This document shows, piece after piece, positions 46,472 to 53,010 of a stretch of DNA of 64,000 nt. The stretch covers positions 1,860,001 to 1,924,000 of the forward strand of contig NZ_CP100425.1 in the NCBI RefSeq assembly GCF_023151555.2, in the 5' to 3' direction. The position numbers were made by a program, and so were the translations under genes. Source of the stretch: Photobacterium sp. CCB-ST2H9 (GTDB lineage Bacteria; Pseudomonadota; Gammaproteobacteria; Enterobacterales; Vibrionaceae). The notes below the pieces were generated by a model. That model did not search any database. It was not told the origin of the DNA and worked only from the letters and a program-made list of their open reading frames with translations. How positions within the stretch are numbered: the stretch's first letter is position 1; each line of letters begins with the position of its first letter.

Positions 46472-46548
46472 ACGACCGTAGCTCAGCTGGTTAGAGCACC
46501 ACCTTGACATGGTGGGGGTCGGTGGTTCGAGTCCACTCGGTCGTACCA
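46472..46548 (+). tRNA. tRNA-Val (GAC), variant A, copy 1
   Basis: A 77-base cloverleaf with acceptor stem ACGACCG/CGGTCGT, anticodon loop CTTGACATG (GAC) and encoded CCA. Stem of variant A: CCACC/GGTGG. Confidence 0.97.
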
Positions 46549-46576
46549 AATTTCGCATTAGAATAACTTAAATTTC

Positions 46577-46653
46577 GCGTCTGTAGCTCAGCTGGTTAGA
46601 GTACTACCTTGACATGGTAGGGGTCGGTGGTTCGAGTCCACTCAGACGCACCA
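46577..46653 (+). tRNA. tRNA-Val (GAC), variant B, copy 1
   Basis: Same arms and anticodon, but acceptor stem GCGTCTG/CAGACGC and anticodon stem CTACC/GGTAG. Encoded CCA. Confidence 0.97.
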
Positions 46654-46701
46654 TATTTCGCAAATTGCCTCCCCTTTTTCAGGCAGTTCGCAACAAACAA
46701 T

Positions 46702-46778
46702 ACGACCGTAGCTCAGCTGGTTAGAGCACCACCTTGACATGGTGGGGGTCGGTGGTTCGAGTCCACTCGGTCGTACCA
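46702..46778 (+). tRNA. tRNA-Val (GAC), variant A, copy 2
   Basis: Identical over the tRNA to the first copy at 46472. Spacer before it contains the repeat CGCAAATTGCCTCCCCTTTTTC. Confidence 0.97.
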
Positions 46779-46792
46779 AAATTTAAAAATCT

Positions 46793-46869
46793 GCGTCTGT
46801 AGCTCAGCTGGTTAGAGTACTACCTTGACATGGTAGGGGTCGGTGGTTCGAGTCCACTCAGACGCACCA
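46793..46869 (+). tRNA. tRNA-Val (GAC), variant B, copy 2
   Basis: Identical over the tRNA to 46577-46653. The spacer before it is only 14 bases. Confidence 0.97.
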
Positions 46870-46914
46870 TATTTCGCAATTGCCTCCCCTTTCAGGCAGT
46901 TTGCAACAGACAAT

Positions 46915-46991
46915 ACGACCGTAGCTCAGCTGGTTAGAGCACCACCTTGACATGGTGGGGGTCGGTGGTTCGAGTCCACTCGGTCGTACCA
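46915..46991 (+). tRNA. tRNA-Val (GAC), variant A, copy 3
   Basis: Identical to the other variant A copies and last of the array; the 3-prime half of it is a likely integration site for the phage-derived island that follows, though I found no duplicate at the far end. Confidence 0.97.
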
Positions 46992-47053: not shown

Positions 47054-47827
47054 CTACATTACACTGGTGTTGCCAGATTCAGAAAGCTGCTTGGCGGCGG
47101 CTTCGTCGCTGACCCCTGTGAGTGAGTCTTTCAGCAGTTGAACCATGGCGGTGTGCTGTTCGGCAGAGAGTTTCAGCCCTTTGGTGTTCGCTTCGAACAG
47201 TGCGATCAGTTGTTCCCACATTGTTTGTCGTTCCTCAAAGAATTTATTCGCCAGTGACTCGGAAAGGTAGGTTGGGCAATCGTGCAGGCTGGCTTCGCTC
47301 AGCTCGATTTTGTCGAGGTTTCTGATGCATGGCCGTGTGACCAACCCGGCGCCCAGCAGGGTTGGGCCAAATTCCTGATACTGGCCGTTCTGCCCTTGTT
47401 CGTTACTGACGTAATTGGGATGAATTTCGGCGCTCAGGTATTTAAAGCCTTCTTTGGTGACTTTGCTGATGCCGAGTTCGTACCACTCCACCTCTGCACG
47501 TAATCGACCGCGATCGGTAAACAAGCGACGCACCACCGCCCCGGCACCGTTTTCAGGCTGGTGCTCAATGTCGATGTTGATTTCCTGGCCATAGACGTTC
47601 TCGTTGAAGTTTTTGACCAGGTCATCGAACATTTGCTGGGTCAGTTCGAATTCGCCGTAGCGCGGATCGTAAAATTTGCCGGTTCGGGTAATGGTGACAA
47701 CACTGCGTTTACTGCTGCTGTGGGTATCCACCTTCACAGCATCCGACAGGAGATGAATGGCCCCGCTGGCCGGTGCTGCACTGAGTGCCAGCACAACACT
47801 GGCGGAAAGAAAGGATTGTTTGCTCAT
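47054..47827 (-). CDS. phage protease (Mu gpI-like / capsid protease), likely remnant (257 aa)
   Basis: The chain has the block VTITRTGKFYDPRYGEFELT, then DIEHQPENGAGAVVRRL and KEGFKYLSAEIHPNYV, typical of phage head-maturation proteases. The N-terminus (MSKQSFLSASVVLALSAAPA) is a common opening for such phage proteins, not a true secretion signal. The C-terminus stops after a short coiled tail, shorter than intact relatives, and no scaffold or capsid genes follow, so it is a prophage relic. It is the last gene of the island next to the tRNA array. Confidence 0.75.
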   Translation of the reverse strand: MSKQSFLSASVVLALSAAPASGAIHLLSDAVKVDTHSSSKRSVVTITRTGKFYDPRYGEFELTQQMFDDLVKNFNENVYGQEINIDIEHQPENGAGAVVRRLFTDRGRLRAEVEWYELGISKVTKEGFKYLSAEIHPNYVSNEQGQNGQYQEFGPTLLGAGLVTRPCIRNLDKIELSEASLHDCPTYLSESLANKFFEERQTMWEQLIALFEANTKGLKLSAEQHTAMVQLLKDSLTGVSDEAAAKQLSESGNTSVM

Positions 47828-47842
47828 GTCTCTGCCCTAAAA

Positions 47843-47874
47843 CGGAAAAGCCCCTGAGGGTAAACTCAGGGGCT
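47843..47874 (-). terminator. intrinsic terminator directly before the phage protease gene
   Basis: AGCCCCTGAG pairs with CTCAGGGGCT, then TTTTCCGTTTT on the minus strand, just 16 bases before the protease ATG. It ends a transcript from an upstream gene that was replaced by the cargo. Confidence 0.75.
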
Positions 47875-47995
47875 CGGTCGCCATCAATGTGGGGAGAGTG
47901 GCAGAGGCTTGGAAGCGGCGGGAGGGGGATCATGGTAATTACGCTGACACAGAACTATGAACACCCTCTTCTGCGAAGCAATTTGCTATGTGTAA

Positions 47996-49444
47996 TTACA
48001 TCGACAGAGCTTCTCTAAGTCCTATATGCACAACCATTTGTTTACTAAAATCTAAATCAGAGTTGTTTTCACGATGAGACCAAGATTGGTACTGCTTACC
48101 ACCTTTCTCTCTATTTTTCCAAGTGTTTCCTATAACACTAAAGTTATATAGATTAATTAGTGCCTGTTCAGCCTTAATGTTTTTATAATGAAAAACATTA
48201 TCTTCATAATACTTAACAATATCTTTGAAATAAAAATAGTGCCGATTAAAATTTTTAATTAACTTAAGGCTTTCTTCTATTTCAATATCTGTAACATGTC
48301 CTGACATTTCATTCCTAACTTCGTCTAACAGATATTGAGAATAATCTGATCTAGCATCTGCTAAAGTTTGCCATCTAAAAGAATTATGCGACGGATGTTT
48401 CTCAATAATAGAATTCAGAAATGTAATAATATCCCTAGGCCTAAAGAATGTTCTTTCGAGTAAAAAACGTTCAGTAGGTATTTTATTAACATTATCAGGA
48501 AACAACAAACCAAATGCGGCATGATCAGATGCAGCTCCTAACAAAGGACTAGATTTCTTTGCTTTTGTTAATATCATTTTAATAAGTGGAGAACTCTTAC
48601 TTATTCTATCTCCCCACTCTATTTTTACTGAATTTATTCTCTTTATTTTGTTCAAGTCAGGATCATTTAATATCGAAAATATATCTGTTCGCAGCAGGAC
48701 AACCGATTTGGCTTCGATCCCATTCTCTACCATTTTAAGGTTTAAGTTATCTGCTGCTTTTATTAAACTTAAAATTGAATTTTTGTAATAGTCATCATCT
48801 CGAAAACGATCATCCAATTCATCATATATGATAGTATGAATTGTTGATGTACATTTCAATGCTTTAACAACAGTAAATTCTAAAGCCTCAATATAATCTA
48901 GATAACTACCTGTCTCTATTTTATCGCCAAAGTTGTTCTCGATGAAAGATCGAAAAACCCCGCCTCTTATTTTATTAGCTTTAGTAATCTCAATAATTCT
49001 TTTACTATCAATATCAATAGATTTGTAGTTCTCCTCAAAGAAATCCTCAATTTTATCTTTATGCTCATTCTTTGACATTTTACTATCTTTTAGTATTGAG
49101 CGAGATAAGTCTAGTAGAAGCATCCACCTCCATATTTCATAATATTCGTTAGGTTTCACATCTTCAGTTTTCAAGTGTACTAACTCTTGGAACTTAAAAT
49201 CCTTGTAGGATCGAATGTCACAATTCCAACTATCATTTTTACTCGACATTTTCTTCATATAATGAGCTAAAAAAGTCTTTCCAGATCCTTTTCTACCCAA
49301 AATCAAAAATTTTTCTTTTCTTTGCACCTGATCATAAATTGATTTCTCGTTTATAAAAAACTCTTCAAAGTTATCTCTATAAATTGCCTCTTTTTTACCA
49401 TCATTCTGACCTAAGTATAGGTCTTTAAGCTCCAATTGATTCAA
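47996..49444 (-). CDS. P-loop ATPase, Sll1717-like (482 aa)
   Basis: Walker A is LGRKGSGKT (residues 49-57) and Walker B TIIYDELDD (204-212), with a sensor-like LLRTDIF near 250-256 and an arginine-finger-like FRPRDII near 334-340. The first residues (LKDLYLGQNDGKKEA) resemble the start of the Sll1717 family of STAND/AAA-like ATPases, which recur in accessory and phage-related loci. No effector domain is seen; the C-terminal 130 residues are helical. The gene is very AT-rich beside its neighbours, pointing to transfer. A phage-defence or nucleic-acid motor role is inference. Confidence 0.72.
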   Translation of the reverse strand: MNQLELKDLYLGQNDGKKEAIYRDNFEEFFINEKSIYDQVQRKEKFLILGRKGSGKTFLAHYMKKMSSKNDSWNCDIRSYKDFKFQELVHLKTEDVKPNEYYEIWRWMLLLDLSRSILKDSKMSKNEHKDKIEDFFEENYKSIDIDSKRIIEITKANKIRGGVFRSFIENNFGDKIETGSYLDYIEALEFTVVKALKCTSTIHTIIYDELDDRFRDDDYYKNSILSLIKAADNLNLKMVENGIEAKSVVLLRTDIFSILNDPDLNKIKRINSVKIEWGDRISKSSPLIKMILTKAKKSSPLLGAASDHAAFGLLFPDNVNKIPTERFLLERTFFRPRDIITFLNSIIEKHPSHNSFRWQTLADARSDYSQYLLDEVRNEMSGHVTDIEIEESLKLIKNFNRHYFYFKDIVKYYEDNVFHYKNIKAEQALINLYNFSVIGNTWKNREKGGKQYQSWSHRENNSDLDFSKQMVVHIGLREALSM

Positions 49445-49613
49445 ATCTTACTCCTATCTTAATTGTTACTTATACATCATGTTTTGTGAACATAAGATGA
49501 TATACCTCATTCGCATATCATTCTTTGCCCTCGTTCAACTTTCACCAACTAATCATATATTTAAACAGCATGCTAGCAAACGTCATTTCTGGCTTTTGCA
49601 TGCTCCGATCACA

Positions 49614-49784
49614 TCAGTAGAAGCTCAGCCCTACCGGCACTTCCACCCACCGCTTACAACGGCACAGCGCGACACCCTCTGCGACTTTGACGCAGCGGGA
49701 GCGGATGACGCCTTGGTGGGTAAAGATGCAGTGGCCGCATTCGCAGACGACGGCGGGGTATGGCCCCGCCAGTTCCTGGTACAT
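49614..49784 (-). CDS. Cys-rich miniprotein, copy 1 (56 aa)
   Basis: The frame has CECGHC, GVIRSRC and CRCKRWVEVPVG, giving six cysteines (about residues 14, 16, 19, 31, 41, 43), a likely zinc ribbon. It is a paralogue of the gene at 52535-52726; the two share GVIRSRCVK and LCRCKRWVEVPVG, and long runs of the DNA. It is too short for automatic calls in most pipelines. It follows the 70-residue gene by 46 bases and precedes the ATPase gene. Phage origin and nucleic-acid binding are likely; nothing is proven. Confidence 0.72.
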   Translation of the reverse strand: MYQELAGPYPAVVCECGHCIFTHQGVIRSRCVKVAEGVALCRCKRWVEVPVGLSFY

Positions 49785-49830
49785 GGCATCGAGTCGTTTT
49801 GTTCAAGTTCGGTGACGTTGGCCTGTACCA

Positions 49831-50043
49831 TCATTCTGCCTCCATCTTGAGTAAGGCGATGTCGAGCTTGTCGCCGATAGATGCAGACAGATAAAAGAGT
49901 TGTTCAGCGGTGAGGGTTTCAACCGGGCCTGAGGTTGCGCCGGAGATTGCGGCTAACCCGCCAATCATTTCCCGGGCTTCGAGGACTAAGGTGTGCGGAA
50001 CTTTGTTGATTGCCTGGAAAGCAGAAGCTGAATTTATAGACAT
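49831..50043 (-). CDS. phage-type small protein (70 aa)
   Basis: MSINSASAFQAINKVP opens it, then an Ala/Gly-rich centre and LTAEQLFYLSASIGDKL, a helical protein. The start at 50043 has a GGAGA site seven bases upstream; the open frame continues upstream through the leader to 50322, but that part crosses a terminator hairpin and is not needed. The protein is followed by the Cys-rich miniprotein. Function unknown; small prophage proteins of this type sit near leader RNAs. Confidence 0.65.
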   Translation of the reverse strand: MSINSASAFQAINKVPHTLVLEAREMIGGLAAISGATSGPVETLTAEQLFYLSASIGDKLDIALLKMEAE

Positions 50044-50330
50044 AGCATGTCTCCGTTGAGAAGCAAATTTACATTGCCACTCGGAGACGCCAATACTCAC
50101 GATGGTGGCAACTCGAACAGGGTTGGCGTAACCGGTCTCAACGATACCGGCGCGACCGAAGTCGCCCCTGCCCGAGCTACCATAGAGTACTGCTTTTCTT
50201 AGGTGTGCGCGAGCGCCGCCCAACAAAAAAGACGCTGAGCGCGTCTTCCGGGCTCTCTTAGTTTGCTGGACGCCAATCCAGATAACAGATTTTGCTGTTA
50301 TGCAATTAGACCATACAGACAAGTAATGTT
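50044..50330 (-). promoter_or_regulatory. leader region of the phage-type small gene
   Basis: About 285 bases between the 688-residue protein and the 70-residue protein. It is GC-rich compared with the cargo on both sides and holds a terminator at 50225-50247 (minus), followed by about 180 bases including GATACCGGCGCGACCGAAGT and several short inverted repeats. A leader transcribed past a terminator recalls the P4-type immunity leader. This similarity is in layout only. Confidence 0.45.
50225..50247 (-). terminator. intrinsic terminator in the leader
   Basis: AAGACGC pairs with GCGTCTT (minus strand) around GCTCA, then TTTTTTG. It lies downstream of any minus-strand promoter near 50300 and about 180 bases before the gene it precedes, so read-through must be controlled for that gene to be made. 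Confidence 0.75.
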
Positions 50331-50339
50331 CGTCAATAC

Positions 50340-52406
50340 CTAATTGCCTTTTCTATCTACTTGTAGCCATCGAATATAGTGATAATCTTTAAACCAATCT
50401 TTACAACCAGTTGATATGTGTCTAGTACGATTTAGCTCTGATAAGAACCCTTCATTATTAGAACTAAAAGATAATATTTCAATAAATTGAGGAACACTAA
50501 AAAACCTACAATTAAAAAATGGGTTCATTTCTTTAGCGTATTCTTCTTGGAATATTTTAGTCTGATATTGATTCCTAAGCTCAAGTAACACCTTATTTAC
50601 TTTTTTATTCTTAGATTCATCATCACTGTTCAATTCAGAGTTTATTAATGAGCCTAATATCTGATGAACAAAAAGACCATCTTGAATACCAAAAAAGCCA
50701 AATAAAGTTAATGCCACTCTTTCAATACGTCTATTGTTTAGAAGAATCTCGGTGCCATCATTAAAAACAATTTTTTCATTCCGGCGAAGTGTGTATTCAT
50801 GGCAACCTGTTTGAGATAGTGCATGAAATAGTGACTGTGAGATATCGACCATTGATGTCAATGCATCTCCGGCTCTTGCATTTGATGTTAAAGTCTTCCG
50901 CTTTAACTCAATGAAAACAATTGACTCTGCTGTCTCTATTATATAGTCACATTCTCTTCCTTGGCTCTTAATATTTAATTCTCTAGCAATTTCCTTTGGA
51001 ATACTATAATTCTTATTGGAATGAAAGGTAATTCCGTTTTTCATGAATTGGCTCTCAACGAAGTCTTCAGCCACCTTACCTAATACATTACCATCCACTC
51101 CACGCTTTGAGAAAACATCAAACAACGAATAATAAAAACCATAGTTACAGAAATTTGAGTTAATATATATATAGTACTTACCCCTATTAATGAAAGGTCT
51201 TTCATAATAGTTTCTTTTTTCTATATCACTTGGGTTCAAGTATCCTCTATTAATATGTAAATAATTATGAGAAAGGATATCAAGTGCATTTTTTAAATCA
51301 TCGAAACCATATTTCAATAAATCAACATATATGTCATGAACTGTAAATTTATATGGCTTTTCACCTGGTCTTGAAAAAATCCACTTCATTATGTCAACAT
51401 ATATATCAACATTAATATTTTCAGATTCCAATAACTTGGATTTAAACATTCCCTCAACCATTTTCAATGCATGATTATTTGAAATTTGATCTATAGAAAA
51501 ATGTTGATCATACAATATATTCTTTTGAATAGCAGGAAGAATAGTATCATAGCGATGATTAATATCGGAAAATTTATTGAAAGGTTGAATTCTCTGAATG
51601 CAAAAATAATGTTTAATTAAATCAGTTACTTCCTCAAAAACCTTGGCGTTCTTATTGAAATTTCTCCTTGGTTTATCGATTTCATATAACTTATTTAAAC
51701 ATACATTAAATAAATACCCCCAGGGAATGTCAATCTTACTCAATTCAACTAAACCAGGCTCAGATCTTAAGAAATATCTTCTAGATTTTGAATCATACCT
51801 TTTTGATAACATCATCATAATAAAAAATAATGACTGCTCACCAAGCTTACTAAGTCTATAGTCAATGGCAGATAGTAAATCCACTTCACTTTTGTGATCT
51901 AAGAATGCACACCCATTATTTATAACTACATTATATCTTTTACTTCTAAGGTAGTTTATAGACCTAGATATAATTTTCTGCTCTTGGAAAATTTGTATAT
52001 TGACAGGATCATAATTGGAGTCTATCGAATATAATGCTTCAAGATATCTTCTTGCTAAAAGCCAAGATTCAATAGAATTATTATATGAATCTAGCACGTT
52101 AATCTGGTAGCGAACATAAGAAAGGAATAAAAATGGACTTTTAAACTCTCCAGTTTTAGAAGAATAGTGTTTGAAACATATATGATCCTCAATATTGGTA
52201 TATTGGCTGGAACTAACTTCTTTTCCACTAAGACATTGCCTTAGTTTTTCTTTTAAGAACTCTTTAACTTCACTTTCAGTTTTATGCGTTTTAAATTTGT
52301 ATCCAAAAGATTTTGCAACATGAATAAAATCATCATATAAATTATTATCTAGGTGCCAGTCATAATCACCATTTTCCAAAAAATCTATAATCTGTTGCAC
52401 GTTCAC
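50340..52406 (-). CDS. large AT-rich protein with PD-(D/E)XK nuclease core (688 aa)
   Basis: A nuclease-like core lies at residues 440-505: GKVAEDFVESQF with Glu447, GRECDYII with Asp487, and FIELKRK with Glu500 and Lys502, the arrangement of PD-(D/E)XK endonucleases. The N-terminal 430 residues are helical, without a motif I know, and might recognise a target; the last 180 residues form an uncharacterised domain. GC content is far below the surrounding core genes, and it stands alone, downstream of a Cys-rich miniprotein gene. No methyltransferase is near, so a classical restriction system is unlikely. I infer a phage-defence nuclease. Confidence 0.7.
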   Translation of the reverse strand: MNVQQIIDFLENGDYDWHLDNNLYDDFIHVAKSFGYKFKTHKTESEVKEFLKEKLRQCLSGKEVSSSQYTNIEDHICFKHYSSKTGEFKSPFLFLSYVRYQINVLDSYNNSIESWLLARRYLEALYSIDSNYDPVNIQIFQEQKIISRSINYLRSKRYNVVINNGCAFLDHKSEVDLLSAIDYRLSKLGEQSLFFIMMMLSKRYDSKSRRYFLRSEPGLVELSKIDIPWGYLFNVCLNKLYEIDKPRRNFNKNAKVFEEVTDLIKHYFCIQRIQPFNKFSDINHRYDTILPAIQKNILYDQHFSIDQISNNHALKMVEGMFKSKLLESENINVDIYVDIMKWIFSRPGEKPYKFTVHDIYVDLLKYGFDDLKNALDILSHNYLHINRGYLNPSDIEKRNYYERPFINRGKYYIYINSNFCNYGFYYSLFDVFSKRGVDGNVLGKVAEDFVESQFMKNGITFHSNKNYSIPKEIARELNIKSQGRECDYIIETAESIVFIELKRKTLTSNARAGDALTSMVDISQSLFHALSQTGCHEYTLRRNEKIVFNDGTEILLNNRRIERVALTLFGFFGIQDGLFVHQILGSLINSELNSDDESKNKKVNKVLLELRNQYQTKIFQEEYAKEMNPFFNCRFFSVPQFIEILSFSSNNEGFLSELNRTRHISTGCKDWFKDYHYIRWLQVDRKGN

Positions 52407-52534
52407 TCCAAATAATTAAAAACTAGCTTCGATATGAATCATATCGCACACAACTTAATTTGGAGTCAACAAATTTTATTCAAAACGAGGACATACGCTA
52501 CTTATGCCGCATGTCCTGAAGTGGCAAGTTATGC

Positions 52535-52726
52535 TTACTGTAAATTCCCAACAGGCACTTCCACCCACCGCTTACACCGACACAGGGCAATGCCCTCGCC
52601 GATTTTGACGCAACGGGATCGAATCACGCCTTCGCTGTCGCAGATGCGGTAGCCGCATTCGCAGACAACTTCATTCACAATGGGTTTTACTGAGTGAAAC
52701 TGAGGGAGTTGTTGTGCGGTATTCAT
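52535..52726 (-). CDS. Cys-rich miniprotein, copy 2 (63 aa)
   Basis: CECGYRIC, GVIRSRC and CRCKRWVEVPVG give six cysteines near residues 22, 24, 29, 39, 49, 51, a paralogue of the gene at 49614. It lies just upstream of the 688-residue gene as copy 1 lies upstream of the ATPase gene. The N-terminus differs from copy 1. No strong ribosome site is seen. Confidence 0.65.
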   Translation of the reverse strand: MNTAQQLPQFHSVKPIVNEVVCECGYRICDSEGVIRSRCVKIGEGIALCRCKRWVEVPVGNLQ

Positions 52727-52818
52727 AATTTGCTTCTAGCTTTTTGCCGTTTATCAGCGCTGGTTTGTACTGATGTCGCTCATTATATCCAAGTTACATA
52801 GGCAATTTTTCAGCAACA

Positions 52819-52935
52819 TCAAAGGGGCCCGGTGTCGATGCCTTTGCGTTTCAGCAAGGCTTCCAGGGGATGACGATTGTTCTCTTTCAGGTGGCCCTGT
52901 TGCAGGGCTGCAACTTTATTATTTTGGCCCTGCAC
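52819..52935 (-). pseudogene. C-terminal fragment of an unrecognised protein
   Basis: A 38-codon minus-strand frame reads VQGQNNKVAALQQGHLKENN and ends GIDTGPL before a stop. It has the codon use and amphipathic pattern of a real protein tail, but no start or upstream part remains. It is probably a broken phage gene. Low certainty. Confidence 0.3.
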
Positions 52936-53010
52936 GGCTGGTTTTTAATTTCTCAAGTCAGAGTTTGTATCTGAGCAAAGTGGACTCTACGGACATGTCT
53001 GCCATGTGGA

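Follow-up and report, generated by a model that had tools for sequence, protein, structure and literature searches.

We analyzed a 64,000-nucleotide stretch of Photobacterium sp. CCB-ST2H9 DNA (hereafter, the window), in which a single AT-rich gene encodes a 688-residue protein with a PD-(D/E)XK nuclease core, lodged in a prophage remnant. The initial annotation, made from the letters alone, had proposed a single-gene defence nuclease. The gene and the parts of its product are located as follows, all on the reverse (-) strand.

50340-52406 (-): solitary PD-(D/E)XK protein gene, 688 amino acids (aa); based on the open reading frame (ORF) call, homologues and structure model
51492-52406 (-): residues 1-305, mostly helical N-terminal region; from models, with structural searches giving no match of note
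51117-51491 (-): residues ~306-430, winged-helix-like region
50697-51101 (-): residues 436-570, YraN-like PD-(D/E)XK nuclease core; from alignment, model and profile comparison
51066-51068 (-): codon of E447, acidic residue of the first helix (21/22 alignment rows)
50946-50948 (-): codon of D487, presumed metal-binding Asp (22/22 rows)
50901-50909 (-): codons of E500-x-K502 (21/21 rows each)
50343-50696 (-): residues 571-688, mostly helical C-terminal extension; from the structure model

The probable nuclease gene and its predicted catalytic core

The ORF runs uninterrupted through 688 codons from a GTG start codon. A GGAG motif directly abuts this GTG and is better spaced for a second GTG at codon 3, so that the true start may lie two codons downstream. 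The gene is AT-rich, as had been noted, with a G+C content (GC) of 0.300 against 0.531 for the nearby head-protease remnant and 0.513 and 0.549 for the flanking gene blocks; the ATPase gene in the neighboring cargo slot has a similar value (0.307). Relative to the nearest full-length relative used, second codon positions differ at a frequency of 0.25 and third positions at 0.55, and by this measure it looks like a selected gene.

The predicted structure is confident (predicted local distance difference test, pLDDT, 88.4) and displays the alpha-beta-beta-beta-alpha-beta order that defines the PD-(D/E)XK superfamily, namely a helix (residues 439-456), three strands (462-468, 483-491 and 495-502), a second helix (515-543) and a final strand (560-567), with the Asp and the E/D-x-K motif on strands 2 and 3. 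In this model E447, D487, E500, K502 and Q532 are placed on the core elements as the fold requires. The first four are the residues that the initial annotation had named as the catalytic pattern, and the model retains the nuclease fold whose absence it had listed as grounds for rejection. In a 23-row alignment that includes the window protein, counted with gapped rows set aside, the four are nearly or fully invariant, as are G443 (22/22) and Q532 (23/23), although identities drop to about 19%. Given this conservation, we regard E447, D487, E500 and K502 as the signature of the family.

These observations bear on the possibility that the gene is a non-functional, decaying relic retained by chance, which we consider very unlikely. 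The surroundings would fit such decay, since nearby prophage genes are shortened or lost, a Cys-rich ORF in the adjacent conserved block is out of frame with respect to the longer form in relatives, and two homologues (L003 and L043) are interrupted. However, the gene itself is full-length, with an intact catalytic set and the codon pattern of a selected gene, even though most of the surrounding prophage is gone.

The family was not found in Pfam, NCBIfam, PHROGs or PADLOC. The 688-aa protein had no Pfam match even at E 1, nothing above or near the cut-off in NCBIfam (best E 0.025; YraN-type model, 0.11) or PHROGs (best E 0.52), and a single PADLOC listing at E 1 (PDC-M29B, E 0.0047 over 33 residues). 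A profile comparison by hhalign with 14 YraN-type proteins gave Prob 96 and E 4.1e-9 over 64 columns, and the family profile A1 detects YraN-sized ORFs with E values from 2e-7 to 1e-3; the YraN label of both the 14 proteins and the matched ORFs was assigned from size and motif. The nuclease half and the YraN-type proteins share a helix-1 Glu, an E-x-D and a hydrophobic-E-x-K pattern. Judged from these comparisons, the nuclease domain is related to YraN/UPF0102 (PF02021), which is described as a PD-(D/E)XK subfamily (PMC1189080). The gathering cut-off of PF02021 is not reached, however; the 688-aa protein is unmatched at E 1, and homologues L007 and L049 score 19.7 and 16.1 bits, under the cut-off of 23.6. 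Moreover, YraN-type proteins are about 115-180 aa long, whereas the window protein is longer by some 435 residues at the N-terminus and is extended at the C-terminus as well. The earlier statement that the regions outside the core match nothing known thus stands for residues 1-305, where neither structure comparison nor the other searches run gave a noteworthy match, and has to be withdrawn for residues 306-567, which are winged-helix-like and YraN-like.

The protein was also compared with characterized nucleases. Shedu (SduA) is a PD-(D/E)XK defence protein of the single-gene type and is represented among the PADLOC models, but the PADLOC scan of the window protein listed no Shedu model at E 1. 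The CRISPR ancillary nucleases Can2 and Card1 carry a CARF sensor; the window protein has no Pfam match at E 1, and thus no CARF domain was found by that route.

Homologues and their genomic neighborhoods

Searches with tblastn identified homologues on 15 plasmid records, the best in Alteromonas (41% identity over 99% of the length) and the rest at 23-31% identity. A scan of GTDB contigs added 11 loci, in Neptunomonas, Spongiibacteraceae, Marinomonas, Vibrio sagamiensis (interrupted), Colwellia, Psychromonas, Azohydromonas, Dyella, Methylococcales, a gammaproteobacterial metagenome-assembled genome, and an Aneurinibacillus contig of 9 kb that is possibly contamination. The 21 homologue loci used below comprise these 11, two from other genomes and eight from plasmids, and they place the family in γ-, β- and α-proteobacteria and on one Bacillota contig. 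In the tree, the window protein groups with those of Neptunomonas, Marinomonas and Spongiibacteraceae (support 98/97), followed by the plasmid-borne Alteromonas protein (99/98), a grouping that fits horizontal transfer.

The gene is rare and not fixed in core genomes; fixation is what the initial annotation would have counted against itself. Among 99 genomes of relatives it occurs in one, namely its own, and at E<=1e-10 in 3/394 genomes of the order and 3/398 of the phylum, with its own genome counted in each; one phylum match (G710) spans the nuclease part only. At the class level (E<=0.001), 77/369 genomes gave matches, nearly all to YraN-sized ORFs of about 100-210 aa. Besides its own genome, a single long hit, to most of the family, stood out (G195, E 2.7e-48), and the nuclease part is shared by two longer ORFs (G255, 724 aa; G326, 477 aa). 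The 724-aa protein (L013:643-2817, -), in which the nuclease part is combined with NERD and SEC-C matches, represents a sister architecture.

The host elements of the homologues vary and include plasmids, a Tn7-type locus (assigned by eye), a prophage remnant and defence clusters. The Colwellia homologue (L044:12183-16611) adjoins a TniQ gene, matched by PADLOC, and Tn7-type transposition genes recognized by eye. Across 22 loci (320 ORFs), no neighbor family recurred in at least three loci except an IS3-type transposase, and the gene therefore appears to stand alone, in line with the single-gene system initially proposed. No antitoxin-like neighbor was recurrent among the 22 loci. A 226-239 aa protein is encoded upstream of the homologue in L041 (5926-6645) and L043 (4636-5316), as the nearest upstream ORF in L043 and farther upstream in L041.

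The same data address a restriction endonuclease of the FokI/BspD6I type IIS kind whose methylase is encoded elsewhere in the genome, an explanation that we find improbable. No methylase family recurred in the 320 ORFs, in a screen that covered part of the neighbors and included no search for an unlinked methylase, and Pfam found no methylase among eight local window proteins; identity to N.BspD6I is 9%. Yet single loci were not all screened, and a DUF1156 gene (L006) and a type I restriction piece (L048) do lie near homologues.

For defence genes, we scanned with PADLOC 23 of the approximately 28 nearest ORFs at 15 of the 21 loci. Within these 15, the downstream sides of L006, L043 and L044 and the upstream sides of L047 and L051 were left unscanned, and a 94-aa ORF overlapping the homologue start in L046 was passed over; L003, L004, L005, L007, L009 and L011 were outside the scan, and L077, L078 and L052 were not used. 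Seven of the 23 neighbor proteins, spread over six of the 15 loci, matched at E<1e-20. The homologue is flanked by LmuB and GajA in L050 and lies beside SIR2-pAgo in L051, while the other matches are PDC-S31 (L041), HamB (L046), the type I restriction endonuclease piece (L048) and Dsr1 (L008). The systems represented thus include Gabija, Lamassu, Hachiman, Dsr1 and SIR2-pAgo, among others.

A prophage remnant with two cargo slots

The nuclease gene occupies the second of two slots in the remnant, which is arranged as follows (features without a strand are regions).

46472-46991 (+): five tandem tRNA-Val genes, the integration neighborhood
47054-47930 (-): head-protease remnant (Mu-like I protein, PF10123, 47054-47827) and edge of a prophage block
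47931-49574: cargo slot 1, occupied by the ATPase gene listed next (1644 bp, GC 0.312)
47996-49444 (-): AT-rich Sll1717-family P-loop ATPase (NF047389, E 1.4e-89; phrog_13260, E 4e-78)
49575-50311: conserved prophage block 1, 81-97% identical at the DNA level in relatives; contains a small Cys-rich ORF and a leader ORF
50312-52540: cargo slot 2, 2229 bp, GC 0.304, between the two conserved prophage blocks
52541-52939: conserved prophage block 2, with a Cys-rich 63-aa ORF (52535-52726) and the final part of a head-cluster gene

The proposal of a prophage-derived island is borne out by this order, which runs from the tRNA-Val array through the head-protease fragment, slot 1, block 1 and slot 2 to block 2. 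The protease remnant scores 34 bits against PF10123 (cut-off 25.2); its counterpart in L074 is 859 aa long and itself has no Pfam match. The small Cys-rich phage ORF is present in two copies (49614-49834 and 52535-52726, both -), one upstream of each cargo gene and co-directional with it, the former being the out-of-frame copy mentioned above. In two loci of the same genus (L053:1667-3544 and L056:1435-3076), an integrase-like ORF, recognized by eye, and prophage-like genes follow directly after the tRNA-Val array, at the site taken by the remnant in the window.

Block 1 was found in 9 of 52 genus genomes at E<=0.001, near full length in six (its own included), over 265 bases in one and briefly in two. 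In L058, L074 and L075 the same blocks lie in a cluster, between the protease-type gene and a portal-like gene; the latter, in L058, scores 21.5 bits against PF07230, just below the cut-off of 22.9, and the remaining head-gene labels were assigned by eye. The block edges that face slot 2 agree within about 10 bp in seven relatives (50302-50311 and 52544-52554).

We compared the slots of seven elements, that is, the window and six copies in five other genomes of the genus, omitting a partial copy (L076). GC is low throughout the 14 slots, at 0.30-0.40. Long cargo is shared at the DNA level by slot 1 of L058 and L074 (1710 bp) and slot 2 of L073 and L074 (1750 bp), and also between slot 2 of L058 and slot 1 of L075 (568 bp). 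Slot 2 of L054 and L075 share 185 bp, while the remaining pairs share only short edges; neither cargo of the window has a DNA-level match to any other slot of the seven elements. In the other 12 slots we identified DRT4 (E 1.7e-218), putAbiC twice (6.2e-28 and 1.9e-28), a ParE-like toxin in L058 with a DNA-level relative in L075, a DUF4041-T5orf172 protein, a Gp10_C-like (baseplate-like domain) protein in one slot, and unassigned cargo in five; for L073-L075, Pfam was the one library used to scan the cargo, and their small slot ORFs were in no library scan. The slot-1 ATPase gene of the window is itself a candidate defence gene. In G019, where the right flank of the remnant matches host DNA of the window (86% over 3.3 kb) and the slots hold DRT4 and unassigned genes, we see what looks like the same remnant in a close relative with different cargo. 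A two-gene cargo in slot 1 of L058 (11960-13524) and L074 (3492-5056) encodes proteins of about 335 aa and about 185-206 aa with hydrophobic stretches, with no Pfam match in L074 and no PADLOC match in L058; it is a possible two-gene defence unit.

Rousset et al. (2022) described anti-phage hotspots in prophages and satellites, including one in Vibrionaceae (PMC9122126). The site reported here resembles those hotspots in carrying variable defence cargo at a fixed position of a prophage family; it differs in that the hotspot described there lies between cI and the integrase of a P2-related phage, whereas the two slots are inside the head gene cluster.

The slots also bear on a YraN- or resolvase-like DNA repair or recombination nuclease that serves the mobile element, for instance in replication or integration, and has no immune role. 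The kinship of the nuclease half to YraN-type proteins and the presence of homologues on plasmids speak for this explanation, but the host elements are diverse, no element gene other than a transposase recurs alongside, and in the prophage family the nuclease is one among many alternative cargoes, so that the phage seemingly does not need it. We therefore regard it as unlikely.

A candidate defence nuclease and its possible mode of action

The protein is probably a stand-alone, methylase-free nuclease directed against phages or, in a wider sense, against invaders, its gene being exchangeable cargo of a prophage. We favor this defence reading because of the conserved core, the rarity of the gene, its occurrence on plasmids, its solitary status, its defence neighbors, and the slot position shared with DRT4 and putAbiC; patchy distribution, defence-gene neighbors (6/15 loci, with a cut-dependent excess) and a prophage slot are also the context expected of an anti-phage system. 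The ORF, catalytic set, fold, rarity, presence on plasmids and other mobile DNA, and slot position were established by computation; what we infer is that the protein acts as a nuclease on DNA, that it responds to a trigger, and that it protects the cell in a defence role.

Several points weigh against the defence reading. Although the window copy sits in prophage DNA, tblastn found no homologue in phage records, and six peptide patterns found no contig with a relative in IMG/VR. Three homologues (L003, L043 and L045) are interrupted or end prematurely, six of the 12 other slots hold unknown or other-kind cargo, one of it baseplate-like, and nine of the 15 scanned loci had no PADLOC hit among the neighbors scanned. 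As controls for the neighbor scan we used 29 proteins from six of the same loci, located 4.5-9.0 kb away from the homologue, with 8 at less than 6 kb. At E<1e-20, a strict cut set after the data were seen, the excess is 7/23 against 0/29 (Fisher p 0.0018); five families matched one control member each (best 4.7e-12), and at E<=1e-5 the comparison becomes 7/23 against at most 5/29 (p 0.21). L050 and L051, two loci initially chosen by eye, account for three of the seven hits. Since the strict cut was chosen afterwards, the neighbor excess is supporting and not decisive. With a basis in computation throughout, the nuclease thus remains a candidate, as first proposed, now backed by homologue context and prophage slots.

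In the proposed mechanism, some mark of infection would be recognized by the N-terminal region, which is mostly helical, together with the winged-helix-like part. The YraN-like domain toward the C-terminus would subsequently cut DNA, using a divalent metal bound by D487 and E500, with assistance from K502. As no methylase or antitoxin gene was seen travelling with the nuclease, selectivity should reside in the protein itself. We consider it somewhat more likely that the protein directly attacks invading DNA bearing atypical or phage-specific features, in a type IV- or Shedu-like manner, than that it is triggered to cleave DNA in general and so stops the infected cell, a lesser though real prospect. 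A specific form of the defence reading, whose chances overlap with those of the reading as a whole, is a solitary abortive-infection or toxin-like nuclease that is triggered by a phage product and degrades host and phage DNA alike. The putAbiC and ParE-like toxin genes in slots of the same element, the lack of any methylase seen that would shield host DNA, and a long N-terminal region that could act as a sensor are consistent with it. In contrast, the winged-helix-like region ahead of the nuclease hints weakly at DNA reading and not at a protein trigger, and no antitoxin-like neighbor recurs; we consider this form rather doubtful.

PD-(D/E)XK domains are frequent in recently described defence systems, being present in 13 of 31 additional validated systems in the DefensePredictor study (PMC13092281), and in another report 11 systems have a component that points to DNA binding or cleavage, with remote PD-(D/E)XK similarity in many cases (PMC9519451). 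With such nucleases and a Vibrionaceae prophage hotspot already published, the kind of system is known, while the nuclease family and the two-slot site appear new within the searches made. It is quite possible, though tentative, that this is the first described member of a family of single-protein immune nucleases in which a helical sensor of about 300 residues, itself unmatched, is joined to a winged-helix reader and a YraN-type cutter. It would then sit at an undescribed two-slot cassette site in a prophage head cluster, where cargo would be exchanged by way of the conserved blocks on either side and retained by the host despite the loss of most of the prophage. The two-slot site leads to more candidate genes, as roughly half of the 14 slots in the seven elements hold unassigned cargo. 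For the question of how methylase-free PD-(D/E)XK defence systems distinguish phage from self, the family provides a compact case of one gene in which the mutants to be made are clear.
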